Assembly: GCA_009746045.1 (NCBI GenBank)
Contig: RPFO01000256.1
Span: forward strand, 2,436,943-2,500,942
Source: Mesostigma viride
Lineage: Eukaryota > Streptophyta > Mesostigmatophyceae > Mesostigmatales > Mesostigmataceae
Length of the DNA: 64,000 nucleotides
Direction: 5' to 3'
The notes beneath the pieces were generated by a model. That model was not told the origin of the DNA. It saw only the letters and a program-made list of their open reading frames with translations, and searched no databases. Below, piece by piece: positions 11,815 through 50,945 of this stretch; within the stretch, counting starts at the first letter, position 1; every line of letters starts with the position of its first letter. The position numbers and the translations under genes were made by a program.

Positions 11815-12893
11815 CTGGTAGGGGTTCGAGCCAGGCTTGGACATCCTTAACGTGAAAGAGCACGGCGGGGTTAGACCTGGTTACCGCCTTGCCGATCTGA
11901 TTTATGCGGATGATACCACCCTCATCGAGAGCCCCGAGCACATTCAGACCTGGCTGGACTGCCTGGGCCTGGAGGCTCGGGCGGTGGGGCTGGAGATTAG
12001 TGTCAAAACTGAGGCGATGGTGGTAGGAGCATCCAGTAAACCACCGCTGCCGCGCCTGCTCGACGGGACGGAGGTCCCGTTCCGCGACCGCTTCAAGCTG
12101 CTGGGGAGCTGGCTTCCTGACACCGCCGACGATGTGGACACCCGCATCGGCCTTGCCTGGGCCAAGCTCCGTTCGCTCACACCCTACTGGCGCTCGAAGG
12201 GCCTTCACGGGCACCGCAAGCGCATGCTCTTCAAGGTCCTCGTCCTCACGGTGCTCACGTATGGCGCCGAGGCGTGGACCCTCACACCCAAACTGGCAGC
12301 TCGGCTCGACGGCACAGTTTACAGGATGCTCCGGCAGGTCCTTAATGTAGGTTTTTCCGAGCGTCCGTCATCAGAGTCTTTGTATCATGGCATGCCTCGT
12401 GTTTCGGACGAGATTAGGCAGCGTAGGATAGCATTTGTAGGACACCTTGCACGCACCAGCCAGGTCGACACCACCCTCGGTCTGGCCGGCCCCCAGCGGC
12501 TTGGACAGCCAGGGCGGCACATTCTGACCTGGCCTGGCCCCAAGGACATTCCCAAAAGGGTAGGGAAACCTGTCACGAACTACGTTCAGATGTTGCTGGA
12601 CGACCTAGTGGTCCCAGCCCAGTTTGAGCACCGCATCCACTCTCTCTCCCGTCTTTGGACTGCCATGCAGGACAAGACGCGGTGGAAGAAGATTGTCAAG
12701 GCGCACACGCCCGACCCTGTGGGCAAGCCACCTCCCCCCAAGCGGAGGAGGCGTTTTGATGAGTAGTGCAGTTAGGATTTTCTAGATAGAGTTAGGATAG
12801 TTCGATCACGCGGCTTCCTCCACCCCATCCATCATGAAATATGTGCTACATGACCTCCCCACGGAGGCATGTTATAATTTAATTTAATTTAAT
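11815..12893 (+). mobile_element. 5'-truncated non-LTR retrotransposon (LINE-C)
   Basis: The element starts inside the reverse transcriptase domain, just upstream of YADD, and runs through the 3' UTR. The UTR carries a hairpin at 12,854-12,867 (CCTCC, loop CCAC, GGAGG) and ends in an ATTTA/TTTAA repeat tail. Truncation at the 5' end with an intact 3' end is the usual product of target-primed reverse transcription. It is related to LINE-A and LINE-B but clearly diverged from both. Confidence 0.85.
11837..12766 (+). pseudogene. Reverse transcriptase C-terminal fragment (LINE-C)
   Basis: About 309 residues, open with no ATG at its start. Motif C is LADLIYADDTTLIE, about 17 residues in. Next come GLEISVKTEAM and RFKLLGSWLP, then the thumb-like region with LTYGAEAWTLTPKL, and the RRIAFVGHLARTSQVDT motif typical of the C-terminal region in this type of LINE. 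The end is basic (PPPPKRRRRFDE). The frame is undamaged although the 5' part is missing, so insertion was probably recent. Confidence 0.85.
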
Positions 12894-13409
12894 TTAATAG
12901 CCCAGAGAAGGGGCATTAATGGCCTATAATACATTCTAAGCTAGACTTCCTGCAAGGGTGGGAATGTAAACGACACTTGCTCAAGGTGCACCAGGGCACC
13001 TGCACCCTCATGATCTATCACGCTATGCCCAGCTAAGGGGGAGCATGTCATGTGGGGGAAGATCATCATAGCTATACTCCTACACACACAGATCTCGAAT
13101 GATTTATCTAGTACCAAATCCGACAGGCTTGCATTACTCCCCGGAAAGGAGACCTTTTGCGGATGACTGTAGGTGTCAGTTGGCGATGCCTTAGGATCAG
13201 GAGACGTCCGTCCTGTAGTCAGCAAAAGTTGGTGCGAGAGGTCCCCAGTTCGATTCCGGCCTGGATTCATTTGCAGATCGCGTTTTCCGCGGACCGGCAC
13301 TGAACGCAAATGGTTTTCACCTTTGCGGCGTGCCAAATCAGAATAGCTATACAAAAGCTAGAGCGTGGCATCTCAGCAGAGAGCAGCTCTCTGCATGGGC
13401 ACAGCATAA
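12893..13409 (-). mobile_element. Half-LINE 3' UTR fragment, split by a SINE-like insertion
   Basis: 12,893-13,067 and 13,353-13,409 are the reverse complement of the 3' region around 50,640-50,880, including the GAATGTATTATAGGCC and CATTCCCACC words. The two parts are contiguous in the 50-kb copy, which therefore gives the empty site for the insertion at 13,078-13,342. Confidence 0.85.
13078..13342 (+). mobile_element. SINE-like insertion, 265 bp, with 10-bp target duplication
   Basis: The segment is flanked by ATAGCTATAC at 13,068-13,077 and 13,343-13,352. The corresponding site near 50,705 has the sequence once, with no insertion. A B-box-like AGTTCGATTCC lies near 13,249 and a weaker A-box-like TAGTCAGCAAAAGTTGG about 35 bases earlier, so a tRNA-derived SINE is plausible. 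A proper tRNA T-stem does not form. The left ~130 bases recur at 63,868-64,000. Confidence 0.8.
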
Positions 13410-13466
13410 CGATATAAAAGCGGGGACATTTATCAAGGAGAAAACCAGCGCAGGCCAGAAATCGGC

Positions 13467-14047
13467 CTTTATGTCAACAAGAAACTGTGGAAGCCCCCCC
13501 GGGCTCCCCCGGGATAGAGCACGAGTTCAAGCTAGTTGTCTAGATGGGGGATAATCGATTATGGGATAGCTTAGGCATTACAGCACTTGAAATGATATTA
13601 GCGCCCAGCGTTATAGTACCTTCAATTAGCTCTGCATGGCACCTTGTGGCCATCCGCTTGCGCCTTAGCCGACGTCTTGAGGCCACCTCACCTTTGTAGC
13701 ATCAGCTATGCGTCAGCCTACCTAGCTATGCATGCCGGTATTGCACTGGTTGTACTGCATCGACAGTGTTGCACCCCGGCACCATGCTGTGAAGAGAGCG
13801 CTCTGTGGCCTGCCCACTTGCGGCAGTGAGAGAAGCTAGGGCGCCCAGTCCCTCCTTCTCGCTGTGTATATAGGGTTGAAGGTTCCTTGACTCTGTACCA
13901 TTGGCACCCACGTGACGCAGTCACGTGCTAATTAATTAATTAATTAACTAATTAATTAATTAATTAATTAATTAATTAACTAATTAATTAATTAATTAAT
14001 TAATTATTTATTTATTTATTTAATTATTTATTTAATTATTTATTTAA
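13467..14047 (+). mobile_element. Non-LTR element 3' region with long (TTAA)n/(TTTA)n tail
   Basis: 13,467-13,927 is about 90 percent identical to 34,858-35,339, where it follows an ORF1 C-terminal fragment; here only the last codons (YVNKKLWKPP-like) and the 3' UTR remain. It ends with the hairpin CACGTGAC-GCA-GTCACGTG at 13,909-13,927, then ~115 bases of TTAA, TAAC and TTTA repeats. This tail is the longest in the window. Confidence 0.82.
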
Positions 14048-15340: not shown

Positions 15341-15816
15341 TGAACTTGACTTCGCGTAGTAGGTGAAAAACAAGCCAACAACCCATCCCGTCTTCAATTC
15401 CTTGAGGACTTATGCTCATGAGACGCAGTTACGTGTAAATTAGCAAAGTAATTAATTAATGTGAAAAAAGCAGAGAAAAAAATAAATAAAACATCCCAGG
15501 TCACCTGGGCAGTTGGACTGGTTGCTTGCTAGCAAACAACCAAGGAAAACAATAACAAATACTACTTTTAAGTTTAATCCCCAAGGCAGTGGGGAACAAC
15601 TAAAGCCAGTGTCATAAATGCAAAGCTTTTAGATCCAAATCTGCACTGCCAGCTGGTACACAAACCAACAAACAAAGGATTGCAAATAAATTAAGCCCTT
15701 GGGGGAGCCTTCCTTGGCATCAAACCCATTCCAGGCAATTGCCAAACACAAATTGGCTGAATACTATCTCCGACTCGCTAAATGGGGGCGGTCTACCGGG
15801 CAACCCTTCTGATAAT

Positions 15817-24069: not shown

Positions 24070-25391
24070 CACACCCCACAACCCTGTAACTAGGACCTAG
24101 ATAGCTTACATAATCCGTTCCATCCCATGTTCTCCTCCCACTGAGGATGCTCACGTGACGCAGTCACGAGTCTATTTATTAATTAACACGTAACAGCATT
24201 ACGTGAGTATAAGTCCTCAGTACAGTCATTAGCAGGAATATGAGCATTCAGGATAAACAGGCTAAATTAAGCACGCACAAGTACTAAGTATAAAGGAAAT
24301 AATGGAAACATGACATCCTGACTTTTGCCTCCGGCCATGAAATTACACGGCGGGTTGGTTGCAATAGAATCATCTTCTCACAAGACGAGCACGCTGATAT
24401 AAATACTTTTCTGCAGCCATTGATCGCGCCCAAGATTAATTAGTATAAGCTAACATCCTCTTTATTGTAGTGGATTATGGTAAGCGCCAGGCACGTGCTC
24501 GCTTCAATGCTAGCATTGCAGGTCGTGCCCCTGGCCTAGCGATCACGAACGAGCTTGGAGAAGGGGGGCCGACTAACAAGCAGAATTTACTAGCTGACCT
24601 CATTTATGCCGACGACATCACGCTCATCGAGGAGAAGCCGGAGTCTGCCCAACTTTGGCTAGCTGGACTGCCTGGCGCTCGAGGCTCGGGCGGTTGGTCT
24701 AGAAATCAGCCCCAAAACGGAGGCCCTGGCCCTCGGCATGGCAGGGCCCCCACCCACACTCCGCCTCTTAGACGACACCGAGGTCCCCTACCCTACTTCA
24801 GGCCGCTTCAAGCTGCTCGGCAGTTGGCTTCCCGACTGCGAGGACGACCTGACGACACGGATAGTCGGCATGGCGTGGGCGCACCTCCATGACCACCGCC
24901 GCTCGGGTGGAGCAACCCCGCCCTACCCCGGATCGTCAAGCGTGACCTCTTCAACTGGTCGTCATTCTGACGATCCTGACCTACGACGCCGAGACCTGGA
25001 CACTGACGCAGGAGCTGTCCAGAGCAACGACTCGACGGCAACGTCACCAAGATGCTGCGCAAGGCCCTTAACATCCCCTTTGGTTTGCACATTAGTAATG
25101 AGGATTTGTACGCTGATTTGCCCTATGTTTCCCACATTATTAGGCACAGGCGCCTGCGGGGCGGCTAGCCGGGCACCTGGCCAGCACAGATCAGGTAGAC
25201 ACATCAGATAGACTAGCTGGCACCAAACCCGCCCAGCCTGGGCGATATGTCCTCACCTGGCGTGCCCCAGGCCGCGCGCGGCAGGGCCGCCACCCGTGGA
25301 CTTTTCGTGATAGACTCGGCATGGACATGTGCTACACTAGACGCGACGGGCTCACGCCCGGGCAGCCTCCTGGTTTGTCTGTAATATGGAA
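24070..25391 (+). mobile_element. LINE-A pieces: 3' end, 5' region, then RT fragment
   Basis: 24,070-24,190 is the LINE-A 3' UTR with the CACGTGAC hairpin (one mismatch) and tail. 24,333-24,440 matches the LINE-A 5' region (complement of ~49,140-49,200). 24,463-25,391 matches RT sequence equivalent to 45,010-44,090. Jumping from 5' region to RT indicates a large internal deletion of a second LINE-A copy. The order 3' end followed by 5' region suggests the second copy inserted at the tail of the first. Confidence 0.8.
24463..25391 (+). pseudogene. LINE-A reverse transcriptase fragment, frameshifted
   Basis: It starts with RQARARFNASIAGRAPGLA and contains NLLADLIYADDITLIEEKPE, matching the 43-49-kb LINE-A except for an extra Glu codon. 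Indels then move the frame at least three times (near 24,665, 24,790 and 24,950). The last recognisable text is the LINE-A equivalent of GQPPGLSVIW. Clearly dead. Confidence 0.85.
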
Positions 25392-34385: not shown

Positions 34386-34387
34386 CG

Positions 34388-35350: not shown

Positions 35351-35560
35351 TTAAATTATGGAGGCAGATGGTACGCAAGGATAGATGGCAAGTAGTGATC
35401 AATGAAGGAGACCACCCCCAAGTCTGTGGGAGCTCCGCGTGTGACCGCGTATGGCATTCATAGCGATTCGGGCCGTGGTGCCCACACCCCTGTAACTAGG
35501 ACCTAGATAGCTTACACCATCCATTCCATCCCAGCCACAAGCCACGAGGTAGCCATGGCT
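35351..35560 (+). mobile_element. LINE-A 3'-end fragment
   Basis: It matches the complement of 43,960-44,110, encoding the last RT residues (WRQMVRKDRWQVV equivalent) and the stop region, then the CCTGTAACTAGGACCTAGATAGC word of the LINE-A 3' UTR. No tail remains. Confidence 0.8.
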
Positions 35561-35679: not shown

Positions 35680-37083
35680 TGACGAGCAAACGCCCCTTGA
35701 CGCACCGCAGTTTAGCGGATGCGCTCGGCCATGAAAATACGTCCGTGCAGCTCAGGCTGCAGCTTCGCCCTCAGGTCCGGCAGGCAGCGGTGACACTAGT
35801 CGTGCACTGGTGGTCGCCCAGCAACCTCCCGGGCTCAATGCCTCGCCATCGGCATCGCCTGACCCGAAACGCACCCGCTCAGCCGACGAAACAGGAGGGT
35901 CTTCACGCCCCTCAGAACCGCGCTTTCGGCCCCAACCTTTCCAGGTCGATGATCATGACTGGACCAACATGTCTCCGAGCGATGAGCACTATCCATAGCA
36001 TCCTCTTCGGGGACTACGCCTCGCTTTACGACCTGTGCCTCCATCTCCACGACAACAATCGCCTCCGCCTCCCGGACGACCGCCGCTGGAACAACATCAG
36101 CATGCTGTTCGGGTGCCCACGCCCCCAACTCCAGCACACCATCCTCAACTCCCTTCTCCAGCGCTCTGACGGCGAGATCTGGGCTCCATCCATCTCCGTC
36201 CCCACACTTCGAGCTCCATATGATTCCTTACGGAAGCCTTTCAGCAGCACGTACGTGACCCCCCTTGCTGCCGACGTAGCAGCAATGGGTGGCACGCTGG
36301 CTACTGAACTTCCTCACATTTCGATCACCACCGCCGCCTCCAACTCAGCTGCCATTTCCGCCTCCACTGCCGACATCAAAGCCCAGCTCCTCGATCGACC
36401 TCGACCAACGCCTTCAAGCCACCGCCACCGCCCTTGAGTGCTTGCATGACACCGCCGGCCTCATCACCGCCCAGGCGGTGAAGGACATCGCCGCCCAGCC
36501 AGCACCTGCTGGCCCGGCCGGCGATGCTCCCTCCACCTGGGCGGACTTGCTTAAGCACCTCTACCACCTCCACCGACCATCGCGGCACAACTCAAGCAAC
36601 AAGCCCTCGACCTTAATTCGCGATCGAGCTAGGAGGCCGACATCACCAAGCGCAGCCACAATGTCATCGTCAAGCACTTCGACCAGCCGGCAGGTGATAC
36701 CTCCACGAGCCTTCTCGAGGTATTTAAATAAGCACGCCATTTAAATTGCCCCCATGCAACTCACTGGTGAGCTGCGGATGTCGGCTGTCCGCCTCCCCCG
36801 CGCGCGGGGTAAGGCTGGCCCGGCACCCGTGCTCCTCACCTTTAAGTACATGGCGGACAAGCTGGCGTTCCTTAAATGCCGCAAGAAGCTCTCGGAGACT
36901 CGCTTCACGCTGGACGACGGCTTGACCCTGGCCCAGCAACAGCGGCGACGCGAGCTATGGCCGACCTACCTTCAGCTCCGGCAGATCAGCGCAAGGGGGA
37001 AGCCGGTATACTGGAGGGGGGCGGTCATCCACGTTGACCACAAGCCCTGGCAGTGGCAGCCCCCTTCTGCCACCTCAGACTAG
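35680..37083 (+). pseudogene. ORF1 protein of half-LINE, frameshifted
   Basis: The N-terminal part is in one frame (ASPDPKRTRSADETGG, EPRFRPQPFQVDDHDW). The middle follows in another (ILFGDYASLYDLCLHLHDNN, RWNNISMLFGCPRPQLQHTI, DGEIWAPSISVP). A Thr/Ser-rich coiled region with AQAVKDIAAQPAPAGPAGDA comes next. The C-terminal part (36,754-37,083) reads ITGELRMSAVRLPRARGKAG-like text, then YMADKLAFLKCRKKLSETRF, then KPVYWRGAVIHVDHKPW. By architecture it is an L1-ORF1p-type RNA-binding protein: coiled coil, RRM-like domain, C-terminal domain. At least three frameshifts. Confidence 0.72.
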
Positions 37084-37099
37084 GGAATATATACCAGTA

Positions 37100-37644
37100 C
37101 CGTAGTGGCTGAAATCACATTGCGAATTAATCTTTTCGAATGAACCCCCGAAAAGTGCTAAAATAATACTTCAATTTACCCCGTAAAGTATGAAAACCGG
37201 AAGGCGCTACACCTGTTTCTGGCTGCAGGCCGCGGCGCAGCTAGATGAAGTGGAGCGCCGCGCTTGCCGCGCCGCGCCGCGTCGCGCCAGATTGAGAACG
37301 CGTTCAATTAGGGGCCCTGTTAGCACTGATTAGGGCCTTATGTCATACTGGTACTCACTTTATCGTCAGATAGGAACTGCGCTTGGTGGGTAATTAATCA
37401 ACTTGATAGGTTAGAATCCAAGTCAGACACTGAACTGTCAGATAGGAACTGCGCTTGGTGGGTAATTAATCAACTTGATAGGTTAGAATCCAAGTCAGAC
37501 ACTGAACTAGGTGCCCTAATATAGACAAGCTCCCGGGCTCGAAGTTTACCTAACCCGGGCTGAACTTTCCCCGTAAAGTGTCAAAACCATGCAAAAAAAC
37601 CCTCGAAAAATTATTTATTCGCAATGTGATTTCAGCCACTACGG
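37100..37644. mobile_element. MITE with 28-bp perfect inverted repeats and TA target duplication
   Basis: The ends are CCGTAGTGGCTGAAATCACA and 8 further bases, perfectly inverted at the right end, flanked by TA at 37,098-37,099 and 37,645-37,646. The homologous half-LINE near 43,390 has CAGTAGTGTAG without insertion. TA duplication fits a Tc1/mariner-type origin. The interior holds a 72-bp exact tandem duplication (37,365-37,508) and a short CCGCGCCGCG run. No gene. Confidence 0.9.
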
Positions 37645-37954
37645 TAGTGTAGATTAGTCAGGCTTAGCCTATAGCATGTGGCCCACGCGCATGTGCGCCC
37701 ATAATGGCCCCCATGGATGTTGCCTTCAGAAATTATTTAGCCAAGCCATGCCTATAATGGGACCCCCATGGATGTTGCATTAAGAATTTAGCCATGCTAT
37801 GCCTATGCAGAGAGATGCTCTCTGTCGAGGAGCCATGCCCTAGTAGATCTTGTATAGCCATGTTGATCTTCCCCACCATACACCTATGACGGGCTCCGGC
37901 CCCTTAGCTGGGAGTTGCCCGAGACTCTGGGTGGTGCAGGTGCCCTAGTGCACC

Positions 37955-39830
37955 TAATTAATTAATTAATTAATTAATTAACTAGACTCGTGCTCCCGTT
38001 GGGGAGGCGCGAAGCATTAACCCCGATGGATGGATGGATGGGTGCAAACAGTCCTACCGGTCTAATCTATCTACATCAGCTACCTACGACATCTATCTAA
38101 CAGCATTCTAACAACAACATCTATCTAGACAGCCTAACGATGCCCTAGGGGAGCTGTCTGGCGTGCCTCCCACGGGTTTGCACACGCGGGCGCTTCCCCA
38201 CTGGGGGGGGCTCGTTGTCCTCTATGACCTGGGCCCACTTGGCCTTGTCCATCATCTTCTTCCAAATCACGGAGAGGCCTAGGCCCCCCATGTCCTCTAC
38301 TAGCTGTTCTTTGAAGGTGCGGGCCTTGCGGCGTCTAACATCAGGGGGCCCGGCCCACGTCATGCAGGAGGTGCCGGCCAGGCTGAGCTGGTCGCAGTCC
38401 TGCGGGGGGGCCACGTGAGGTGTCTACCTGGTTGGTGCGAGCTAGGTGCCCTACAAGCTGCAGGCGCCGCTGCTTAATGGTGCTGGTGATATATGGCATG
38501 CCCTGGTACAGGTCCTCATTGCGGACATGAGCAGCATATCCTACTCTGAAAATGGAACGCAGCATGTTGGTGACCGCGCCGTCCAGCTTGCGGCCGGCCA
38601 GGTCGGCGGTGAGGGTCCACGTCTCGGCCCCATACGTGAGAACAGGAAGGACGAGGACCTTGAACAGGTCCTGTTTCTCGATCTTGCCCAGGGGCTTGCG
38701 CCACAGGGCCCGGTACTGGCGTAAAGCGTGCCAGGCGAGGGAGATGCGATGGTCCACATCGACCTCGCAGCTGGGGAGCAGGCTGCCCAGCAGCTTGACG
38801 CGGTCCCGATACAGGACTTGAGAGCCATCGAGGAGATAGAGGGGTGGCGGTGAGTGGGTGAGCCCAACCGCCAGGGCCTCTGTCTTCTTGCTGACCTCAA
38901 GCCGCCCCACTGCCCGAGCCTCGATAGCCAGGCAGTCAAGCCATGTCTGCACGTGCCCAGTGTCCTCGAAGAGGGTGGTGTCGTCTGCGTAGATGATGTC
39001 TGCCAGCCGAATCTCCGTGTCCGCTCCGCCATGCCAGAATTTGTTAGCAACCTGCATCCCTGGTTCCCTACCCACGATGCGGGCAAATCGCTTGCGCGCC
39101 TGAATCATTATGTATTCGACCACAATAATGAACAGGTAGGGCGACAGCACGCAGCCCCTGCCACACACCCTTCTGTAAAGGGCATGGTGGCGTGGTCCCG
39201 TAAGAAGTGCGCACCGAAGTGGTGGACCCTTCAATAAAGTTTGCGGATGACAGCAATCAGGGGGCGGGGGATCCGGAACAGCTCGAGGATGTCCCAAAGC
39301 GCAGGCCAGAAAACCGAATCGAAGGCTTTGATGAAGTCCACCAGCACAAGGTGCAAAGGGGACTCACCAGGCTGAAGGCGTTGCAGTTCCTCCACCAGTC
39401 GGCGAGTAGCGAAGAGCGCCTGTACCGTGTTGCGACCTGAACGGAAGCCGTGCTGAGTCTCGCTGAGGTGACCGTCCAGGGCCGTGCGCAGGCGGTTCAG
39501 GATGAGCCGCATAAGAAGCTTGAGGGGGGCACTTTGGATGCACACCCCCGTCTGTAGTTGCCGGGGTCGGCAGGCGACCCCTTGTTCTTGTACAGCATCG
39601 TGCGAAAACTGTGTTGCCAGGCCGCTGGAGGTGGTTGCGACGACAGCAGAAGGCGGTTGCAGATGTCCCGGAAGAGCAGCATAACACCTGTGTCCTCGAA
39701 TTCGGAGCACGAGACGGTCGGTGATCAGATTCCACCGTGCTGACAGAATCGATCTTGCAGGACGCGAGCATTGACAACTGAGGGGCGCTGCCGGAGCCCG
39801 ACGTACGCAGATATAGTCAAGGCACACCAC
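37955..39830 (-). mobile_element. 5'-truncated LINE-B
   Basis: RT from before motif A to the C-terminus, then a 3' UTR with the CTCCC-CAAC-GGGAG hairpin (complement at 37,993-38,006) and a TTAA tail at 37,955-37,985. The tail tract is shared with the half-LINE to its left, so the two elements meet tail to tail. Confidence 0.87.
38145..39830 (-). pseudogene. LINE-B reverse transcriptase, frameshifted
   Basis: 39,231-39,830 holds GVCIQSAPLKLLMRLILNRL and LVDFIKAFDSVFWPALWDI (motif A). 38,341-39,297 holds RGCVLSPYLFIIVVEYIM, RLADIIYADDTTLFEDTG (motif C) and RRLQLVGHLARTNQVDT. 38,145-38,414 holds the C-terminus GLSVIWKKMMDKAKWAQVIE. At least two indels (near 39,250-39,290 and 38,370). Closest in this window to 33,677-34,220. 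The region upstream of RT (39,600-39,830) no longer reads sensibly. Confidence 0.87.
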
Positions 39831-39854
39831 CCGATCCGACCGGGCCCAAAAATA

Positions 39855-40095
39855 CCTAGAGCAAGTGTTGTTTACATTCCCACCCTTGCAGGAAGTAGCC
39901 TAGAATGTATTATAGGCCATCTGCCCCTTCTCAAGGGCCATGTGCTATACAGATACTCCCAACGGAGTTATGTTCCTAATTAATTAATTAATTAACCAAT
40001 CAATTAATTAATTAATTAATTCCATCCCATGTTCCCCTCCCACTGAGGACTTATGCTCACGTGACGCAGTCACGTGTCTATTAATTAATTAACTC
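39855..40095 (+). mobile_element. Half-LINE 3' end followed by a LINE-A 3' end
   Basis: 39,855-40,020 is a half-LINE 3' UTR with hairpin ACTCC-CAAC-GGAGT (39,955-39,968) and TTAA tail. 40,021-40,095 is a LINE-A 3' end with CACGTGAC-GCA-GTCACGTG (40,058-40,076) and its own tail, inserted at the first tail. Nothing recognisable from 40,096 to 40,349. Confidence 0.83.
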
Positions 40096-42139: not shown

Positions 42140-43820
42140 GCATCGCCCGAAACCAAACGCAGTCGCCCATGCATCCGCGGTTCGCGAACCGCGTTTCAAG
42201 CCCAAAACCTTCAATGTGGACGATTACGACTGGTACAACATTGCCCCGTGCACTGTGCACATGCTCTGTCCAGAGTGCATTTTCGATACGGGGATTACTA
42301 CGCCTCGCTCCTTGATGAGCTGTGCCTCCACCTTCACAGCATCAACCGTCTTCTCGAGCCAGATGGCCGTGCGCAGGCTTCAAAACCGAGATCTGCTGCT
42401 GCATGACGGGCCTCAACTACAACCGGCCCGACCTTCAGCACCTGATTCTCTGCTCCCTCCTCACGATCGAAGTCTGACGGCGAGATCTGGGCTCCATCCA
42501 TCTCCGCATAGATCTACACTCCGCTCCATCCTTACGGAGGCCATCCAGCAGCACGTGACCTCCCTTGCCGCATGCAGATGTGGCAGCAATGGGAGGCACG
42601 TTGGCTGCTGAGCTCCCTTACATTTCCACCACCGTCACCTCCACCTCCACCCTCCTCGCCTCCACCTCCACTGCCGCCTCCTCCTCCACCGCCGACATCA
42701 AAAGCCAGCTCCACGACATCGACCAGCGCCTCCACGACCACGCCATCGCCATCGAATGCTTGCAAAACACCGCAGGCATCACCGCCCAGGCGGTGAAGGA
42801 CATCGCTGCCCAGCCGGCATCTGCTGGCCCGGCCAGCGATGCTCCTCCCACCCAGACCTGGGCGGACCTGCTCAAGCACCACTCCACCACCACCACCTCC
42901 ACCATCGCGGCACAGCTCAAGGAACAAGCCCTCGACCTCCGCGAGGAGGCCGACTGCACCCAGCGTAGCCACAAGGTCATCGTCAAGCACTTCGACCAGC
43001 CGGCAGATGAGACCTCGACGACTCTTCTCACGGCATTCAAGTGCGACATTCTAGCCCCCTCGCACATCACTGGTGAGCTGCGGATGTCGGCTGCCCGCCT
43101 TCCCCGCGCGCGGGGTAAGGCTGGCCCGGCTCTCCTGCTCCTCACCTTTAAAGTACATGGCGGACAAGCTGTTGTTTCTTAAAAACCGCAAGAAGCTCTC
43201 GAGGACTCACTTCACGCTGGACGACGACCTGACCCTGGCCCTGCAACAACGGCGACGCGAGCGGCCATGGCCGACCTACCTCCAGCTCCGGCAAAGCGCA
43301 GGGGGGAAACCGGTATACTGGCGGGGGGACGTCATCCACGTCGACCACAAGCCCTGGCAGGCACCCCCTGCCACCCCAGTCTAGGGAATATAGCAGTAGT
43401 GTAGATTAGTAATAAGGCTTAGCGCCTACCACGCGGCCCCAGTGCATGTGCGCCCATAATGGCCATGGATGATGCGTTTAAGAATTTAGCCACGCCCTGC
43501 CTATAATGGGACCCCCATGGATGACGCATTAAGATTCAGCTCAGCCCTGCCTGTATAGAGAAACACTCTCTGATGCATGAGATCCCATGCCCTAGCTCTA
43601 GCTTGTATAGCCATGGCTTCCCCCCCCATGACAGGCTCCCCTTAGTTGGGTTGAGCTCTGAGACTCTGGTGGTGCAGGTGCCGGCCTTGGTGCACCTAGA
43701 GCAAGTGTCGTTTATTATACATTCCCACCACCCTTGCAGGAAGTAGCTTAGAATGTATTAAAAGCCATATGCTCCTTCTCTGGGATATGTGCTACATATT
43801 AATTAATTAATTAATTAATA
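42140..43820 (+). mobile_element. Half-LINE (ORF1-only retroelement), second copy
   Basis: It is collinear with 35,800-37,980 but lacks the MITE. It contains one ORF1-like gene, then a 3' UTR (43,385-43,796) and an (ATTA)n tail at 43,797-43,820 shared with the opposing LINE-A. No endonuclease or RT. Confidence 0.78.
42150..43384 (+). pseudogene. ORF1 protein of half-LINE, two or more frameshifts
   Basis: The N-terminus reads ASPETKRSR and then, one frame over, EPRFKPKTFNVDDYDWY. 42,565-43,182 encodes 205 residues without interruption: ADVAAMGGTLAAELPYIST, a Ser/Thr-rich coiled stretch, ITAQAVKDIAAQPASAGPAS, TWADLLKHHSTTTTSTIAAQ, then the RRM-like start RSHKVIVKHFDQPADE and ELRMSAARLPRARGKAG. 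A frameshift near 43,150 is followed by YMADKLLFLKNRKKLSRTHF and KPVYWRGDVIHVDHKPWQ, stopping at 43,384. RNA-binding chaperone role is inferred from L1 ORF1p-like architecture. Confidence 0.75.
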
Positions 43821-43974
43821 GACACGTGACTGCGTCACGTGAGCATAAGTCCTCAGTGGGAGGGGAACATGGGATGGAATGGATTAATTAATTAATAGAC
43901 ACGTGACTGACATAAGTCCTCAGTGGGAGGGGAACATGGGATGGAATGGATGGTTTAAGCTATCTAGGTCCTAG

Positions 43975-45849
43975 TTACAGGGGTGTGGGCACCGCGGCCC
44001 GAATCGCTATGAATGCCATATACTTGGTCACACGTGGAGCCCCCACAGGCTTGGGGGTGGTCTCCTTCATCACTACTTGCCATCTATCCTTGCGCACCAT
44101 CTGCCTCCATATTACAGACAAACCAGGAGGCTGCCCGGGGGTGAGCCCGTCACGTCTAGTGTAGCACATGTCCATGCCGAGTGTATCACGAAAAGTCCAC
44201 GGGTGGCGGCCCTGCCGCGCGCGGCCGGGGGCACGCCAGGTGAGGACATATCGCCCAGGCTGGGCGGGCTTGGTGCCAGCTAGTCTATCTGATGTATCTA
44301 CCTGATCTGTGCGGGCCAGGTGCCCGGCTAGGCCCAGGCGCCTGTGCCTAATAATGTGGGAAACATAGGGCAAATCAGCGTACAAATCCTCATTACTAAT
44401 GTGCAAACCAAAGGGGATGTTAAGGGCCTTGCGCAGCATCTTGGTGACGGCGCCGTCGAGTCGTTGCTCCAGCTCCTGCATCAGTGTCCACGTCTCGGCG
44501 CCGTAGGTCAGGATCGTCAGAATGACGACCTTGAAGAGGTCACGCTTGACGATCCGGGGTAGGGCGGGGTTGCTCCACCAGCGGCGGTGGTCATGGAGGT
44601 GCGCCCACGCCATGCCGATCCGTGTCGTCATGTCGTCCTCGCAGTCGGGAAGCCAACTGCCGAGCAGCTTGAAGCGGCCTGAAGGAGGGTAGTTGACCTC
44701 GGCATCGTCTAAGAGGCGGAGTGTGGGTGGGGGCCCTGCCATGCCGAGGGCCAGGGCCTCCGTTTTGGGGCTGATTTCTAGACCAACCGCCCGAGCCTCG
44801 AGCGCCAGGCAGTCCAGCCAAAGTTGGGCAGACTCCGGCTTCTCGATGAGCGTGATGTCGTCGGCATAAATGAGGTCAGCTAGTAAATTCTGCTTGTTAG
44901 TCGGCCCCCCTTCCCCAAGCTCGTTCGTGATCGCTAGGCCAGGGGCACGGCCTGCAATGCTAGCAAAGCGAGCACGTGCCTGGCGCATAACATAATCCAC
45001 TACAATAATAAACAGGTACGGCGACAGGACGCAACCCTGCCAGACGCCGGTCTGCAGTGGGCATGGCGGGGTAATGCCGTGTTGAGTGCGCACCGAAGTG
45101 GTCGACCCCTCATACAGCGTGCGGATGACGGTAATCAGGGGAGTGGGGACGCGAGCGCGAGCAAGTACAGCCCATAGAGCGTCCCAGAGGACAGAATCAA
45201 AAGCCTTGATGAAGTCGACGAAGATCAGGATGGCGGGAAACTCACCAGGTTGCAGGAGAGCGATTTCCTCGAAGAGGCGACGCGCGACGAAGATGGCCAT
45301 GACGGTGTTGCGCCCAGGACGGAAGCCCATTTGACTTTCCCCAAGGTGACAGTCGAGAGCAGAACGAAGGCGGTTGAGGATCATGCGCATGAACAACTTA
45401 AGTGCGGCGCTCTGGATGCAGACTCCTCTGTAGTTGGCGGGGTCGTCAGGGGAACCTTTGTTTTTGTACAGCATAATACGGTAGCTGTGCTGCCACTCAG
45501 GAATCGGCGGCGCGTCGGCAAGCAGGATCCGGTTGCAGACGTCAAGCAGGAACCCCGTGAGCGCCGTCAGCTTAATCACCGGGGCTGGGAGCTGGTCAGG
45601 TCCAACGGCGGCATAGAAGCGGAGTTGCTTGGCGGCGGTGCTCAGCTCGAGCTCGGTGAACGGCGGGAGCTCGTTGGGGTCGGCCAGGGGTTCCGTCAGG
45701 GCTGGGTACGTGTAGTCCTGCTCAGCGGCGGGCGGCGTGGGCGGCGCAGGGACGTCCGCCGGTGCTACTGCCAGGCGTGCGGCCGCCAGAGGGCCAAGCG
45801 GCGGAGGCGGCGGGGGGCGCCGAGCAGCCGGGACTGGGAGGAATACCAC
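43975..45849 (-). CDS. LINE-A reverse transcriptase region (ORF2, 3' part)
   Basis: 624 codons are open, with no ATG before the RT core; the frame's first codon is GTG. Motifs: WQHSYRIMLYKNKGSPDDPA, GVCIQSAALKLFMRMILNRL, MGFRPGRNTVMAIFVARRL, IFVDFIKAFDSVLWDALW (motif A), GCVLSPYLFIIVVDYVMRQA, LLADLIYADDITLIEKPE (motif C), RFKLLGSWLP, and C-terminal RLGLAGHLARTDQVDT. The upstream endonuclease ORF overlaps by 85 bases in another frame. The join lies in a Pro-rich linker (ARRPPPPPPLGPL) with a C6 run near 45,812, so RT must be made by frameshifting or this copy carries one indel. All catalytic residues look intact. Confidence 0.9.
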   Translation of the reverse strand: MVFLPVPAARRPPPPPPLGPLAAARLAVAPADVPAPPTPPAAEQDYTYPALTEPLADPNELPPFTELELSTAAKQLRFYAAVGPDQLPAPVIKLTALTGFLLDVCNRILLADAPPIPEWQHSYRIMLYKNKGSPDDPANYRGVCIQSAALKLFMRMILNRLRSALDCHLGESQMGFRPGRNTVMAIFVARRLFEEIALLQPGEFPAILIFVDFIKAFDSVLWDALWAVLARARVPTPLITVIRTLYEGSTTSVRTQHGITPPCPLQTGVWQGCVLSPYLFIIVVDYVMRQARARFASIAGRAPGLAITNELGEGGPTNKQNLLADLIYADDITLIEKPESAQLWLDCLALEARAVGLEISPKTEALALGMAGPPPTLRLLDDAEVNYPPSGRFKLLGSWLPDCEDDMTTRIGMAWAHLHDHRRWWSNPALPRIVKRDLFKVVILTILTYGAETWTLMQELEQRLDGAVTKMLRKALNIPFGLHISNEDLYADLPYVSHIIRHRRLGLAGHLARTDQVDTSDRLAGTKPAQPGRYVLTWRAPGRARQGRHPWTFRDTLGMDMCYTRRDGLTPGQPPGLSVIWRQMVRKDRWQVVMKETTPKPVGAPRVTKYMAFIAIRAAVPTPL

Positions 45850-47588
45850 TGGTCGAGCTGCTGCTGCGGTGAGCCAGAGAGCGTCCGCGGCGCCGGCTGC
45901 GCGCCGCCGGCGGGCCGTTGGGCGTGACGCAGGCGGGTCCAGGCGTACTTGCCGTGCTGGTCCTTGAGGTGGGCGAAGTACTCGCGGACATGAAGGTCCT
46001 CCTGCTCCTTGGTCGCCTGCCGGATGGCCGAGTGGTAATCGGCTTTGAGGCGGGCGGGGTCGCTGTTGTCGCGCAGGGCTTGCCGGGCCTGGATGACGGC
46101 GGGGAGCCGGTGCAGGCTGGTGAAGCGGGGCGGGCGGCGGGGGGGCAGTAGGGCCCCGGCCGCGGGCAGCTTGTCAGCGAGGTGCCGAAGGGCCGATGCC
46201 GGGCCGGCAGCGAACAGCTGGGCGTGGCTGGCCGGGATGTCCAGCGCGTCGACGAACGCCTCTGCGGCGCGCTTGTGGGCGCGTTTTTCAGGGAAGTCCT
46301 CCAGAGCGTCGTCAGATTTCTCGAGCAACTGAAGTGTGCGCAAATCAGGTGGTGCCACGTGCTTACGAAAGGGCGAGGGGAATCGCAGGCGGATGCGGGC
46401 GGTGACGATGCGATGATCGGAGCGCACCAGGGGGATCACATGCGAGCGAGCAGCTAGTACAGATCCTTGATGACGCTTGCGCATTACAACATAGTCAATG
46501 CAGCGTTCAGTGCCAGTTGGCGAGGTGTGTGTGACCAAAGCATCTGGACTATGTGGAAAGCGGGTGTTGGCAGTGACCAAATCGCATGTCGTAAGCAAAT
46601 CAGCAAAAAGTTCAGTGTTGGCATTGGAGACCGTACCGTTGGGGGCGTGCTGACATCCGCCAGTACCCGGTGGTAGCGTGGCGTTGGCGTCCAGCAGCAG
46701 AGCGAGGTAGTTGCGACCAGGGATGCCGTTCGCCAGGTTCTCCAGCGCTGCAAAGAAGTCCTTGCGGTCTTGTTCTGGGTGGCCGGAGTGGGGTGCGTAA
46801 CCAACGCCCACCGTCAGGGCGTAGGTCGAGTGGCCCTCCATCGAATGAAAAGTGGCCACGAGGAGCCGAGCGTTGACCAGCTGGGGTTCGCCCATGTGGC
46901 GTACGGCGAGCGGGGAGCAGAGGAGACCGACGCCCCCGTTCCCGGTGCCGTCGCCGCCTCCGTAGTAGAACCGCCAGCCGTCGATGTCGTCAGCAACAAG
47001 GGCAGTTGATCCGCGGGCCGATGCAGTGCGCCTGTGTTCTTGGATTCCCAGGATGGCGATATTATTGTCGATGCAGAAACCAATAAGATTGGAGACTCGA
47101 TGGCACTGACAGTCGTCACTGCGCAGGCAGTGACAGCGGTCAGCGTCGGGCTGGAGCGTGCGGGCGTTGAAGGTGGCGATGACCAAGGGCGCGCGTTGAC
47201 CGAAAAGGGGGGTGCAGGCGGGGGTGGGGGCGGAGATGGAGCAGGGTGGTGATGGGGGTGGGGGTGGAGGTGGTGGGGTAGGGGGGGCGGGTTGGGGACT
47301 TATGCTTTCAATCACCGTTTCGATTCTTCCTGCCAACGCGTCGAGGCGACGCCGACGGTTGGCTCGGGTGGCCAGGTAGAATGAGTCTGCGTCTGCACGC
47401 ATAAGAAATGCGTGCAGTCTGAGGAGGTTTCGGAGGCGGCCGCGCGAGGCGGGGCGAACCTGGCTCACTGCCGACCCGTTGCTCTCTCTCCGACAGCCCG
47501 AGGGCTGCGAAGGCAAAGGGGCGGGAAGGGGAGTTAGGCAGATCCCACTGCTAGAGCCGCGGAGCCGCGGGGCCGCGAGCGTCGTCAT
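45765..47588 (-). CDS. LINE-A APE-type endonuclease region (ORF2, 5' part)
   Basis: 607 residues from an ATG that overlaps the ORF1 stop codon (ATGA). After a ~150-residue Pro/Arg-rich leader the endonuclease starts with VIATFNARTLQPDADRC. It then shows ILGIQEHRR (catalytic Glu), GWRFYYGGGDGTGNGGVGLL, YLALLLDANATLPPG (Asp/Asn), and the SDHRIVTARIRL signature (Asp-His). A ~130-residue linker follows (WTRLRHAQRP...). The frame ends at 45,765 before RT begins. The endonuclease would nick target DNA for reverse transcription; the (TTAA)n-rich neighbourhood suggests its preferred target. Confidence 0.9.
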   Translation of the reverse strand: MTTLAAPRLRGSSSGICLTPLPAPLPSQPSGCRRESNGSAVSQVRPASRGRLRNLLRLHAFLMRADADSFYLATRANRRRRLDALAGRIETVIESISPQPAPPTPPPPPPPPSPPCSISAPTPACTPLFGQRAPLVIATFNARTLQPDADRCHCLRSDDCQCHRVSNLIGFCIDNNIAILGIQEHRRTASARGSTALVADDIDGWRFYYGGGDGTGNGGVGLLCSPLAVRHMGEPQLVNARLLVATFHSMEGHSTYALTVGVGYAPHSGHPEQDRKDFFAALENLANGIPGRNYLALLLDANATLPPGTGGCQHAPNGTVSNANTELFADLLTTCDLVTANTRFPHSPDALVTHTSPTGTERCIDYVVMRKRHQGSVLAARSHVIPLVRSDHRIVTARIRLRFPSPFRKHVAPPDLRTLQLLEKSDDALEDFPEKRAHKRAAEAFVDALDIPASHAQLFAAGPASALRHLADKLPAAGALLPPRRPPRFTSLHRLPAVIQARQALRDNSDPARLKADYHSAIRQATKEQEDLHVREYFAHLKDQHGKYAWTRLRHAQRPAGGAQPAPRTLSGSPQQQLDQWYSSQSRLLGAPRRLRRLALWRPHAWQ

Positions 47589-49054
47589 TGATAGGAGAGA
47601 AGGGTTCGCAGCGCGGGCTCCGGCTCAGGTGCAAAGCGAACGAATTTATTAGGGGGACGGCCAAGCCTGGCAGCCATACCTGAGCTGAAGTTGCCCCGGC
47701 GGATCCCCACACGTGCTGGGGAGCAGGTGACCGTCGATGCCGGTGGCGATGGCGGTGACGGCGGGGGCCGAGCAGGGGGCTGGGGCGCTGGCACGGCGGT
47801 ATCCATGGGGGTCGCCGTCATTGGAGGAAGGTCCTGGCCGTTAATGCGGACGATGAAGACGCCATTAAAGAGGCGGGCATAGATGCTGCACCGTAGTTGC
47901 GGGTTGGCCTGCTTGGCTGCCCGAGCCTCGTGGACCTCCGGCCGGTTCAAAGCGGCAGCCCGGGCCTCAAGCTGCTCCGGGGTATAGTAATCGTCGATGC
48001 TCAGTTGGGTATCGTGGAGGTTCCGGCGGGCCTTCTGCACCTGCAGTTTGTCCTCCTTGCGGTGGAATTCCACCAAGACAGGGGCGGTGGGGCCGCCGAG
48101 CCGTCGTGCCGTTTTGATGACGACGCTTTGGGCCACGCCGAGCTTCCCCAGGAAGGGGTCGCCCCGGAGGTAGGTGCCCAGGCGTGCATCGTTGACGTTC
48201 GAGGGGACGCCACGTACCACAATACTGCATGAGCGAATGGGTTCGTGCATAGCATCCCTTGTGCTGGCCTTGACGGCTGTTTTGATTTCGTTGATGAGCT
48301 CCGTAGGGTTCTGAAGCGTGGCGGCATAGGTGGTCTTGGCAGGAGTTATGGAGGCGGCAAGTTGTTGCTGGAGCTGGTGGAGGAGCTGCTGCTGCTGCTG
48401 CAGCCCTGCTGCAATGTGGGTGATGGCGGAGTGGATGGAGGTGTCGGCGTGTGAGGAATGGGCGTGGTGGGTGGCGAGGTGGTTGTGGACAGGGTTGAGG
48501 GCAGCGTTGAGGAGGGGAGGGAGGCGATCGAAGCAGGTATTGGCGACTTGCTTGGCGGTGATGTTGATGGCGGCCGCAACAGTGGGGTCGGCTCCCAGGT
48601 CCAGAGAGGCCATGACAAAGCTCTCAAGGGCGCTGTCGGAAAGACGGGAGCACGTCCACCAGACTGCGAGGCAGAGGTCAGTGTCGTCGGGGTCGTCGTG
48701 GAGAAAGTCCGACAGGTGGGTAACCTGTTGGTTGCAGTCCCGGATCTCGCACTTTTTCTCGGCAGCCAGGTGCAGGATGGTGAGGGCGGCAGCTCGGGAC
48801 AGGCGCATGATGGCGTTAAGGCCTGGCCATTTGCCAGGTAAAAATGCGGCAGCTTCCTCGGCAGAAAAGGCCTCCTCGCGGGTATCCATGGCAGGGTCGC
48901 TGTTCGGCGGAGCGGTGGAGTGGAGCGGCTGGATGCTGACAGTGGCGTCCGGCAAAGCGTGCAAGGGTGTTTCCAATGACGCCATGGCTTCATCAGCGAG
49001 TTGGTGCAGGGCCGCGGACGCTTGTGATTGCTGGGATGAGTCGTATTCCGCCAT
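47585..49054 (-). CDS. LINE-A ORF1, RNA-binding protein
   Basis: 489 residues from the ATG at 49,054; the frame is open further upstream but runs into the 5' monomer. Residues ~1-150 are acidic/Ala-rich with DTREEAFSAEEAAAFLPGKW. A coiled, Gln-rich stretch follows (LQQQQQLLHQLQQQLAAS). Next is an RRM-like domain, SIVVRGVPSNVNDARLGTYL to PVLVEFHRKEDKLQVQKARR. The C-terminal part ends IYARLFNGVFIVRINGQDLP and a Pro-rich tail. This is the L1-ORF1p layout. The half-LINE proteins share it, with VYWRGAVIHVDHKPW in place of IYARLFNGVFIVRING. The stop overlaps the next start, suggesting termination-reinitiation. Confidence 0.85.
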   Translation of the reverse strand: MAEYDSSQQSQASAALHQLADEAMASLETPLHALPDATVSIQPLHSTAPPNSDPAMDTREEAFSAEEAAAFLPGKWPGLNAIMRLSRAAALTILHLAAEKKCEIRDCNQQVTHLSDFLHDDPDDTDLCLAVWWTCSRLSDSALESFVMASLDLGADPTVAAAINITAKQVANTCFDRLPPLLNAALNPVHNHLATHHAHSSHADTSIHSAITHIAAGLQQQQQLLHQLQQQLAASITPAKTTYAATLQNPTELINEIKTAVKASTRDAMHEPIRSCSIVVRGVPSNVNDARLGTYLRGDPFLGKLGVAQSVVIKTARRLGGPTAPVLVEFHRKEDKLQVQKARRNLHDTQLSIDDYYTPEQLEARAAALNRPEVHEARAAKQANPQLRCSIYARLFNGVFIVRINGQDLPPMTATPMDTAVPAPQPPARPPPSPPSPPASTVTCSPARVGIRRGNFSSGMAARLGRPPNKFVRFAPEPEPALRTLLSYQ

Positions 49055-49070
49055 ATCGAGCTGAAAAAAC

Positions 49071-49408
49071 AGCGATATTTGCTGGGCAGGGCGGTGCCGG
49101 TATCTTCGGAAATATTGAGCGATAGCTGTAGAAAATTGTATCAGCGTGTTCTTCTTCAAAAGACGAGTCTAATGCAACCAACCCGATGAAATTTCATGGC
49201 CGGAGTCAAAAGTTATGAGCATTCTCGTATATTGCAACAGCGATATTTGCTGGGCAGGGCGGTGGCGGTATCTTCGGAAATATTGAGCGATAGCTGTAGA
49301 AAATTATATCAACGTGTTCGTCTTCAAAAGACGAGTCTAATGCAACTAACCCGATGAAATTTCATGGCCGGAGTCAAAAGTTATGAGCATTCTCGTATAT
49401 TGCAACAG
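49071..49408 (-). repeat. Two 168-bp 5' UTR monomers of LINE-A
   Basis: 49,071-49,240 and 49,239-49,408 are nearly identical, with differences such as GGTGCCGG/GGTGGCGG and CTTCTTC/CGTCTTC. They contain the 5' region that recurs at 24,333-24,440. Repeated promoter monomers at LINE 5' ends are known from mouse L1; a promoter role here is inferred. Confidence 0.88.
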
Positions 49409-49745
49409 AGAAGGGGCATATGAGCCTATAATACATGGAATGGATGGTATAAGCCATCTAGGTCCTAGTTACAGGGGTGTGGGCACGGCGGCCCGAATCG
49501 CTATGAATGCCATACTTGTGCTACATATACTCCCAACAGAGTTATGTTCCTAATTAATTAATTAATTAATTAATTAATTAATTAATTTATAGGTTTGGAT
49601 TCCAGAAAAGTGCACTTTAGGAGGGTCCCCTTAATTTAGACAAAGTTCTGGGTACTGTATCTTACATAATCCATTCCATCCCATGTTCCCCTCCCACTGA
49701 GGACTTATGCTCACATGATGCAGTCACGTGTCTATTAATTAATCA
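49409..49745. mobile_element. Mosaic of small retroelement and transposon relics
   Basis: 49,409-49,438 is a half-LINE 3' UTR scrap (minus). 49,438-49,515 is a LINE-A 3' UTR scrap (minus). 49,515-49,588 is a half-LINE end with hairpin at 49,529-49,542 (one mispair) and TTAA tail. 49,592-49,634 is a relic of the TTAA-transposon right end. 49,665-49,745 is a LINE-A 3' end with the CACATGAT...GTCACGTG hairpin and tail. Confidence 0.72.
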
Positions 49746-50945
49746 ATTAATTCTAGGTATCTTAACATCCGCCTCCACCGACTCCATCACCGCCCAGCTC
49801 CGCTCGACATCGACCAGCGTCTTAAGGACAATGCCATCGCTATCGAGGTCCTGCAGAACACCGCAGGCCTCACCGCCCAGGCGGTGAAGGACATTGCCGC
49901 CAAGCCAGCCCCTGCTGGCCTGGCCGGCGATGCTCCTCCCATCACGACCTGGGCGGACGTACATGCTTAAGCAGCACACCACCTCCACCACCTCCGCCGT
50001 CGCAGCCCAGCTCCAGCGGCAGACGCTTGACCTCAGCGAGAAGGCCGAGCTCGCCAAGCGCAGCCTCAACGTCATCGTCAGGAACTTCGACATGGAGGAA
50101 GGTGAGAATTCCGAGAAACTTACGCGCGCGTTTAGAAATCCTTGGTCGCATGGGCCTTAATGGTGAGATCGAGCTGGTCGCCCACCGCCTTCCATGCGCG
50201 CGGGGTAAGGCAGGGGCGCCCCCGCTCCTTCTCACCTTTCAGAACCCGGCGGACAAGATTTCTTTCCTCAGACGCCGCAAGCGGCTCGAGAAGACTCACT
50301 TCACCCTTGACGACAACTTGACCCTGGCGCAGCAACAACGGCGACGGGAGCTATGGCCGACCTACCTCCAGCTCCGGCAGACCAAGGCGGGGCAGCCGGT
50401 GTACTGGAAGGGGGCGGTCATCTACGTCGGCCACAAGCCCTGGCAGGCGACCCCCGCGGCCCCAACGACTCCAGACGCCCCAGCTTAGGGGAATACAGCA
50501 GTAGTAGTGTAGAATAGATAGACCGTGGCCATGTACATGTACGCCTCCTACAGGCACTATACCAGCTGATTCACGAGCATTATTTAGCCATGTACATGTG
50601 TGCCTATGATGTGCCACACCCCAGATGATGCCTAGCTTTATTTAGTTATGCTGTGCCCATGCAGAGAGCTGCTCTCTGCTGAATTGCCACGCTCTAGCTT
50701 TTGTATAGCTATGATGATCTTCCCCCCCATGACAGGCTCCCCCATAGCTGGGCATAGCTTGATAGATCATGGGGATGCAGGTGCCCTGGTGCACCTAGAG
50801 CAAGGGTCGTTTACATTCCCACCGCTTGCAGGAAGTAGCTTAGAATGTATTATAGGCCATATGCCCCTTCTCAAGGCTATGTGCTACATATACTCCCAAC
50901 GGAGTTATGTTCCTAATTAATTTATTTATTTATTTATTAATCTTA
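49745..50945 (+). mobile_element. 5'-truncated half-LINE
   Basis: It begins directly at the preceding ATTAATT tail, within the ORF1 coiled region, and runs through a 3' UTR (50,490-50,890) to hairpin ACTCC-CAAC-GGAGT (50,892-50,905) and an AATTTATTTATT tail. No RT. Confidence 0.8.
49760..50488 (+). pseudogene. ORF1 C-terminal fragment (half-LINE)
   Basis: Early part: SIAIEVLQNTAGLTAQAVKD-like text and IAAKPAPAGLAGDAP. Then, in frame from 49,894, AVAAQLQRQTLDLSEKAELA, then KRSLNVIVRNFDMEEGENSE. A frameshift near 50,140 leads into GEIELVAHRLPCARGKAG, FQNPADKISFLRRRKRLEKT, HFTLDDNLTLAQQQRRREL and QPVYWKGAVIYVGHKPWQ, stopping at 50,488. The C-terminal half is the best-preserved ORF1 end in the window. 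Confidence 0.75.

Follow-up and report, generated by a model that had tools for sequence, protein, structure and literature searches.

Bulged 3' hairpins with compensatory stem changes in LINEs and ORF1-only half-LINEs of Mesostigma viride, and their probable use in trans

A stretch of 64,000 nucleotides from the streptophyte Mesostigma viride (hereafter the window; C1646:2436943-2500942, contig RPFO01000256.1, GC 0.54, in an assembly of 440 Mb and 2,243 contigs) and other parts of the same genome carry families of TTAA-tailed retroelements. They comprise long interspersed nuclear elements (LINEs) bearing a reverse transcriptase (RT), here called LINE-A, LINE-B and LINE-C, and half-LINEs with the first open reading frame (ORF1) only, called half-1, half-2 and half-3. 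At their 3' ends lies a hairpin with a constant loop and, in one class, a bulged nucleotide; its stem changes by compensatory substitution, and the half-LINEs have their tails in common with particular LINEs. TTAA-tailed elements are further seen inserted into half-1 elements with duplications of 11 and 12 nt. These hairpins are probably the 3' recognition signals of stringent-type LINEs, used in trans by ORF1-only elements resembling HAL1, and the arrangement suggests that the long families provide the enzyme by which the short ones are copied.

The 3' hairpins and their pairing

The original prediction, made from the window sequence, described five hairpins with a 5-bp stem and a CMAC tetraloop near the tails of three families, and took the change of stem bases with kept pairing as a mark of selection on RNA shape. 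All five are there with perfect 5-bp stems (at 12854, 34340, 39955 and 50892 on the plus strand and 38006-37993 on the minus strand); the stem is, however, longer than predicted, since it consists of a lower part of 4-5 bp, a bulged 5' nucleotide and the upper 5 bp closed by the CMAC loop. Written out, the LINE-C hairpin is ACATG-a-CCTCC-CCAC-GGAGG-CATGT, that of half-1 is ACATA-t-ACTCC-CAAC-GGAGT-TATGT and that of LINE-B is CGTG-a-CTCCC-CAAC-GGGAG-CACG. A sixth window copy, absent from the prediction, was found at 49523-49547 with one broken pair (C.A), and the bulged form is the predicted fold in four of the six. In most copies read the tail behind the hairpin is (TTAA)n or (TTTAA)n. The hairpin count alone is weak evidence, six in the window comparing with a simulated mean of 1.15 and a maximum of 7 in 100 simulations, and one further perfect 5-bp CMAC hairpin (62409) has no adjoining TTAA tract. 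A search of the window with model R1 gave six matches above 70 bits, all of them rows used to build R1, and the next-best matches (37.3 bits) fell on other TTAA tracts; Rfam at gathering thresholds had no match in the window, nor had viral_contigs for one 18-mer.

The pairing itself is more informative. Over the six window copies 93.3% of the 60 cells are paired, and among the ten pairs six change on both sides, two are invariant and two deviate in unpaired cells alone; covariation scores 0.613 as against 0.270 after shuffling (reached by 0 of 500 shuffles) and at most 0.273 with slid partners. Pairing was no requirement for a larger set of 41 tails, which gave 33 distinct rows: tails were admitted if they resembled one of four family strings over 40 nt with no more than 13 mismatches, and the sequence covered comprised the window, 20 stretches of contig C1 of 10 kb each and five others; L013 is all N and L022 partly N, and L029 was picked because matches lay there. 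In these rows 84.2% of 330 cells are paired (71.9% shuffled), double changes affect 57 cells (22.9 shuffled) and the score is 0.422 (0.225 shuffled), with none of 500 shuffles as high in any of the three; slid partners give at most 48.8% paired cells and a score of at most 0.194. The predicted keeping of the pairing between families with different stems was thus borne out, covariation being strong over many copies.

Genome-wide patterns with free stem positions were also searched, with the reversed pattern as the control, and pairs were counted in the first 100 places listed per pattern, all on contig C1. Freeing the bulge together with pairs 15-31 and 17-30 gave 12,833 matches, and 0 for the reversed pattern. 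Among the 100 listed copies 96 form pair 15-31 (after shuffling 59.6 on average and at most 72 in 2,000 shuffles), by G-C in 44, A-U in 35, C-G in 6, U-G in 6 and G-U in 5. Pair 17-30 is formed in 82 (mean 49.2, maximum 63), or in 98 if the bulge may shift by one, a looser rule under which the shuffled mean is 91.6 and 98 was reached once. Taking only the 23 distinct variants among the listed copies, 19 form pair 15-31 (mean 11.5) and 18 form pair 17-30 (mean 10.8). When six pairs are free, 545 of 600 pairs form in the 100 listed of 26,751 matches and all six form in 71 copies, as against 166 to 384 of 600 with slid partners; around one in eight of these listed copies may be a chance match, judging by 3,131 matches of the reversed pattern, and subtracting these leaves about 24,000 CMAC copies. 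The covariation sits in the LINE-C/half-1 group and between groups.

Compared with these 26,751 matches, the same pattern minus the bulge stays at background (3,462 against 4,008 for its control), and no excess was seen when the second loop letter was G or T and any third one was allowed (7,752 against 22,545, a control inflated by its own composition). Because variants without the bulge or with other loop letters show no excess, the bulge and the CMAC loop belong to the signal, shared ancestry also contributing to their constancy. One further hairpin family, CGTG-g-TYCCC-CAAC-GGGGA-CACG, accounts for five of 100 listed copies (C1:735941, 1532691, 2023648, 2071187 and 2398218).

A second hairpin class, of 8 bp with a GCA loop and no bulge, ends LINE-A and half-2 and has 5,380 matches in the genome. 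Nine rows from the window, one with the 5' arm deleted, have 95.3% of 64 cells paired. This class and the LINE-B/half-3 class look young rather than unconstrained, and they add little to the case from covariation.

Shared tails and interrupted elements

The match between half-3 and LINE-B is confined to the last 42-55 nt (about 52, of which about 34 nt precede the TTAA tract), where the two are 88-98% identical, and no match was found above it. The LINE-C and half-1 tails are homologous over the last ~40-45 nt (by eye), and LINE-A and half-2 have the GCA hairpin (19 nt) and the tail in common. These ends are abundant: the half-3 end occurs as an exact 36-mer in 1,885 genome copies (control 0), the 14-nt LINE-B/half-3 hairpin in 8,576 (control 15) and the half-1 hairpin in 7,124 (control 0). 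Some half-3 copies are 93-98% identical over hundreds of bases and others 75-82%. The suggestion that ORF1-only elements borrow a LINE RT gains support from these tails, best of all from half-3 and LINE-B with their common last ~52 nt only, half-3 then presumably being copied in trans.

The half-LINEs are laid out as an ORF1-like frame, a 3' untranslated region (UTR) of about 400 nt and a tail, and are not short and non-coding like a short interspersed nuclear element (SINE); half-3 likewise has an ORF1-like frame upstream of the shared tail, and in the half-LINE copies read the sequence from ORF1 to the tail has no RT match. Over about 70 residues the half-LINE and LINE-A ORF1 sequences are 27-32% identical. 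For a structural model of LINE-A ORF1 residues 270-450 (predicted local distance difference test score, pLDDT, 65.9), human L1 ORF1p ranked first; ORF1 had no Pfam match to E 0.01, and by sequence the Protein Data Bank returned four unrelated weak rows (best E 0.098). The RT sequence matches L1 ORF2p and R2 best among solved structures, matches that do not place its clade.

Ends with and without a hairpin were counted by two scripts. The first, anchored just upstream of the hairpin, covered 49 ends in the sample and the window and found the hairpin at 7 of 8 LINE-A ends (the script gave 8/8, one hairpin belonging to the next tail), 8 of 9 LINE-B ends (the ninth enters a CCAT array, with the tail beyond it), 4 of 6 LINE-C, 9 of 13 half-1, 3 of 3 half-2 and 10 of 10 half-3 ends. 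Hairpin-less ends are a minority, and in this respect also the prediction stands. The second script started from longer 3' regions and covered 45 ends with a TTAA tract, 35 of them with a hairpin of their own (one a chance string) and ten with none; its labels at L021:1232, L021:1248 and window 13929 are chance or shifted strings. Six of these ten ends face a hairpin-bearing end on the opposite strand, and four of the six were traced as nested insertions. The other two, at window 12897 and L021:438, are without a traced insertion; at 12897 no remainder was seen in the ~260 nt inspected beyond LINE-C.

On detailed examination, half-1 ends at window 37955 and 43799, L027:6220 (minus strand) and L029:7175 were rejected as true losses of the hairpin, the elements being interrupted by LINE-B, LINE-A or half-3-tailed stretches. 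Beyond the LINE-A stretch, which is flanked by the 12-nt duplication TGTGCTACATAT, half-1 and its hairpin resume at 49517. Beyond LINE-B they resume at 39854, with a junction overlap of ACC or ACCTA (by eye); CCTAG was considered as the duplication of this insertion and was not located at the junction. In L027 a half-3-tailed stretch with two half-3 ends lies in half-1 between copies of the 11-nt duplication GCTATGTGTTA, and the resumed hairpin is damaged, whereas in L029 half-3 lies inside half-1 ORF1, the continuation of which is seen past the insert. The hairpin was therefore found beyond the insert in three of the four, once damaged. Since the four hairpin-less half-1 ends are nested insertions, what looked like the chief exceptions are elements broken by an insert, and they document TTAA-tailed insertion of an RT-bearing as well as an ORF1-only element.

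The interrupting LINE-A stretch is composite, with a tandem pair of LINE-A 3' ends at 43807-43951 and a LINE-A 3' UTR piece plus a half-1 piece near 49408-49515; the region 49408-49591 is a mosaic made up of half-1 sequence on the minus strand, part of a LINE-A 3' UTR and the 3' end of the resuming half-1. LINE-C has an open frame of 1064 aa in stretch L035, at C1:9742599-9745793. That copy abuts another repeat (L035:1601-2812), which is 99-100% identical in 39 other scored copies and ends at about L035:2812, where LINE-C starts; of 40 scored matches, 39 show the repeat ending at that point, and the remaining one is the copy itself. In L036 the sequence upstream of LINE-C is mostly N. Around the match, many near-identical LINE-C copies have an open frame of the same length, exactly 556 aa, pointing to a subfamily that shares a stop or a truncation. 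Two LINE-B copies read are cut within the endonuclease, and one of them, in L034, is preceded at a distance of about 100 nt by a half-1-type ORF1 (68% identical) of the same orientation, which may be its own or a neighbour's. Two LINE-B copies with different neighbours (window ~39853 and L034 ~1540) start at about the same base in the endonuclease region, which may reflect a 5' truncation hotspot, a subfamily start or a splice product. At L027 7825-8650 the CCAT repeat of a LINE-B 3' UTR is seemingly expanded to about 800 nt before the hairpin.

The coordinates are collected in Table 1. Convergent tail-to-tail pairs were considered as a sign of target choice and dropped, two hairpin-hairpin pairs comparing with a null mean of 0.47 and a maximum of 6. 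Within half-1 copy 1 lies a short DNA element (37091-37644). Its terminal inverted repeats read CCGTAGTGGCTGAAATCACATTGCG by eye, its target duplication is TA, and the empty site is seen at about 43392. Elsewhere the window has a Mutator-like transposase frame (9669-11156, minus strand; PF20700, E 5.3e-22) and long tandem arrays at 17-1628 and 1904-2671 with units of 71 bp and 30 bp (89 bp).

Table 1. Retroelement features of the window, with positions counted from its first nucleotide
Feature	Position	Strand	Remarks
LINE-C 3' hairpin	12848..12872	+	followed by (TTTAA)n
LINE-B 3' hairpin	34334..34358	+	lower stem CGTG/CACG, bulge A, CTCCC-CAAC-GGGAG
LINE-B 3' hairpin, second copy	37988..38012	-	one lower pair broken
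half-1 3' hairpin	39949..39973	+	one lower pair broken; ends half-1 copy interrupted by LINE-B
half-1 3' hairpin	49523..49547	+	one C.A mismatch; ends half-1 copy interrupted by LINE-A stretch
half-1 3' hairpin	50886..50910	+	
LINE-C ORF2, C-terminal part	11822..12766	+	RT-bearing
LINE-B copy, 3' part	33676..34385	+	with hairpin and tail
LINE-B copy (RT)	37955..39853	-	within half-1 element; TTAA tail 37955-37981
Stretch interrupting half-1	43800..49516	-	LINE-A ORF1, endonuclease frame, RT; flanked by 12-nt duplication TGTGCTACATAT
LINE-A ORF1 frame	47588..49168	-	527 aa
LINE-A open frame, APE-type endonuclease	45765..47624	-	by eye and match to L035 ORF2; no own Pfam match
LINE-A open frame with RT domain	43975..46173	-	
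half-1 copy 1	35915..37954	+	ORF1-like remnant and 3' UTR, 5' of LINE-B insertion; remainder 39854-39996
half-1 copy 2	42186..43799	+	ORF1-like remnant and 3' UTR, 5' of LINE-A stretch; remainder 49517-49591
half-1 copy 3	49768..50941	+	ORF1-like C-terminal part, 3' UTR, hairpin, tail
half-2	34386..35359	+	ORF1-like remnant, 3' UTR, GCA-loop hairpin, tail
half-2 GCA-loop hairpin	35321..35339	+	CACGCGAC-GCA-GTCGCGTG, compensated pair
half-2 GCA-loop hairpin	13909..13927	+	CACGTGAC-GCA-GTCACGTG
LINE-A GCA-loop hairpin	43823..43841	-	at 3' end
LINE-A-type GCA-loop hairpin	40058..40076	+	separate 3' fragment behind half-1 tail
LINE-A-type GCA-loop hairpin	49712..49730	+	3' fragment
LINE-A-type GCA-loop hairpin	24152..24170	+	one mismatch; 3' fragment back to back with minus-strand one
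LINE-A-type hairpin	24187..24205	-	CACGTAAT-GCT-GTTACGTG, one compensated pair, one wobble

Proposed use in trans and competing explanations

In the mechanism that we propose, the RNA of each family would have the stem-loop at its end, with a few TTAA units behind it. The ORF2 protein of the partner LINE would bind this stem-loop, recognising the loop specifically and the stem by its general shape and needing the bulge, and would set the TTAA end at the nicked target, so that target-primed reverse transcription starts from the repeat tail. Half-1, half-2 and half-3, which have ORF1 only and bear the matching stem-loop, would use the ORF2 of that LINE in trans. Binding by ORF2, use in trans and the assignment of each half-LINE to a partner are read here from shared sequence.

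Several observations weigh against this reading. In the six window copies the six double-changed pairs were matched by 19 of 500 shuffles and the further pair types by 487 of 500; in the 33 rows the seven pairs with a double change were matched by 100 of 500, the 16 further pair types by 278 of 500, and the outermost pair is unformed in 15 rows, mainly of LINE-B and half-3. Within the LINE-B/half-3 class (7,442 matches) seven of 100 listed copies differ at a free position and none is compensated (by-eye count), and in the GCA class 10 of 100 listed copies differ without any pair being changed on both sides; the two double-changed pairs of the GCA hairpin in the window, matched by 14 of 500 shuffles, are modest evidence, and the link between half-2 and LINE-A consists of the 19-nt hairpin and the TTAA tail. 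The tails share ancestry across families, so that copies are not independent events; the three families of the original prediction do all carry the hairpin, but the homology of the LINE-C and half-1 tails means that they are not independent and that the covariation events are few. Finally, G.U and A.C counts (15 and 12) do not discriminate RNA from single-stranded DNA, and of the predicted selection on RNA shape it is the keeping of the pairs by compensatory change that stands.

The stem-loop might instead serve another step, such as 3' end formation of the transcript, stability or export of the RNA, or, at the DNA level, the forming of a cruciform next to the palindromic TTAA tract. Its location at the very 3' end suits 3' end formation, and the undecided strand test leaves room for the cruciform. 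However, the hairpin is common to RT-bearing and RT-less families that are otherwise dissimilar in the 3' UTR, and a constant bulge and loop suit protein recognition of the kind described for L2 LINEs (PMC4176376). We consider such a role unlikely as the whole explanation, although the hairpin could have a double role.

Common ancestry without function appears quite improbable. Tails of ~40-52 nt would then have spread by template switching or recombination at TTAA tracts with the hairpin as a passenger, and the homology of the tails (LINE-C with half-1, LINE-B with half-3) as well as the near invariance of LINE-B/half-3 copies among the matches listed are consistent with this. A passenger hairpin, on the other hand, would not hold its pairing while both sides change, as seen in the several pair types per position and in the 82-96 of 100 listed copies that are paired, above shuffles and slid partners. 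It is very doubtful that the half-LINEs are internally deleted LINEs with an inherited tail, dead fossils not mobilised in trans: the half-1 ORF1 frames in the window are broken and LINE-A ORF1 is a distant relative, but half-3 has numerous exact ends and closely similar copies, no match to LINE-B was found above the shared tail, and inserts ending in the half-3 tail interrupt half-1, which argues that half-3 moved as an element.

Recognition of the hairpins by LINE enzymes and their use in trans may be extended, rather tentatively, to a scheme in which at least two hairpin codes (CMAC with bulge, GCA without) sort the cognate sets LINE-B/half-3, LINE-C/half-1 and LINE-A/half-2, the half-LINEs being stringent-type HAL1 elements, the loop a swappable address and the stem free to drift by compensatory change. 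In its boldest form the half-LINEs would supply ORF1p to LINE-B and LINE-C, and together they would make a two-part retrotransposon; the few LINE-B and LINE-C copies read are truncated and gave no ORF1 that could be assigned to them with certainty.

The way in which LINE enzymes choose their RNA has been worked out for few elements. Here several linked families of a single genome, with thousands of copies between them, constitute a natural mutational record, with drifting pairs, a kept bulge and held loop letters, and from its loop class one can predict the LINE that mobilises a given ORF1-only element. If the proposed use in trans is true, ORF1-only elements can live on stringent LINEs, beyond the poly(A)-reading L1.

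Comparison with known systems

Each component is already known: stringent LINEs have 3' stem-loops, a plant L1 hairpin has compensatory changes, and HAL1 has ORF1 only. In the open-access literature searched, judged by titles and abstract openings, no description was found of ORF1-only elements sharing a hairpin end with LINEs.

The Zepp LINE of Coccomyxa/Chlorella is alike in its mutually inserted copies and nested clusters, and differs in forming one cluster per chromosome, whereas the places listed here are spread along C1 (PMC3446292); a 3' hairpin is unmentioned in the available part of that source.

Similar to the present families, the plant L1 group (LINE1-1_ZM and SINEs) and the Chlamydomonas pair L1-1_CR/SINEX-3_CR share 3' ends of ~50-80 nt, and the plant group has a hairpin with compensatory changes and a conserved loop (PMC3747384). 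Copying in trans has been proposed for SINEs with LINE tails (PMC3747384). The partners in both sets are, however, SINEs, and the Chlamydomonas pair ends in poly(A) (PMC3747384).

In zebrafish L2 LINEs the 3' stem-loop is bound by ORF2, with specificity coming from the loop, and in UnaL2 a single bulged nucleotide is needed (PMC4176376), to which the bulge of the CMAC class, though not the bulge-less GCA class, may be likened. UnaL2, ZfL2-1 and ZfL2-2 with their SINE partners resemble the elements described here in having a 3' stem-loop with an upper and a lower stem near a repeat tail, the loop as the specific part and a tail common to the LINE and its non-autonomous partners (PMC4176376, PMC3747384). 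They differ from them in that here the loop is a CMAC tetraloop or a GCA triloop, the tail is (TTAA)n and the partners encode ORF1; recognition by ORF2 is in the present case suggested by sequence.

Mammalian HAL1 (half-L1) is the closest counterpart of the half-LINEs themselves, being non-autonomous, encoding ORF1p only and thought to need ORF2p in trans (PMC3627910, PMC5753468), and mammalian L1 has been described as having relaxed recognition of poly(A) (PMC3747384). The half-LINE copies read likewise have an ORF1-like frame and, from there to the tail, no RT match; unlike HAL1 they end not in poly(A) but in a conserved hairpin followed by TTAA repeats.

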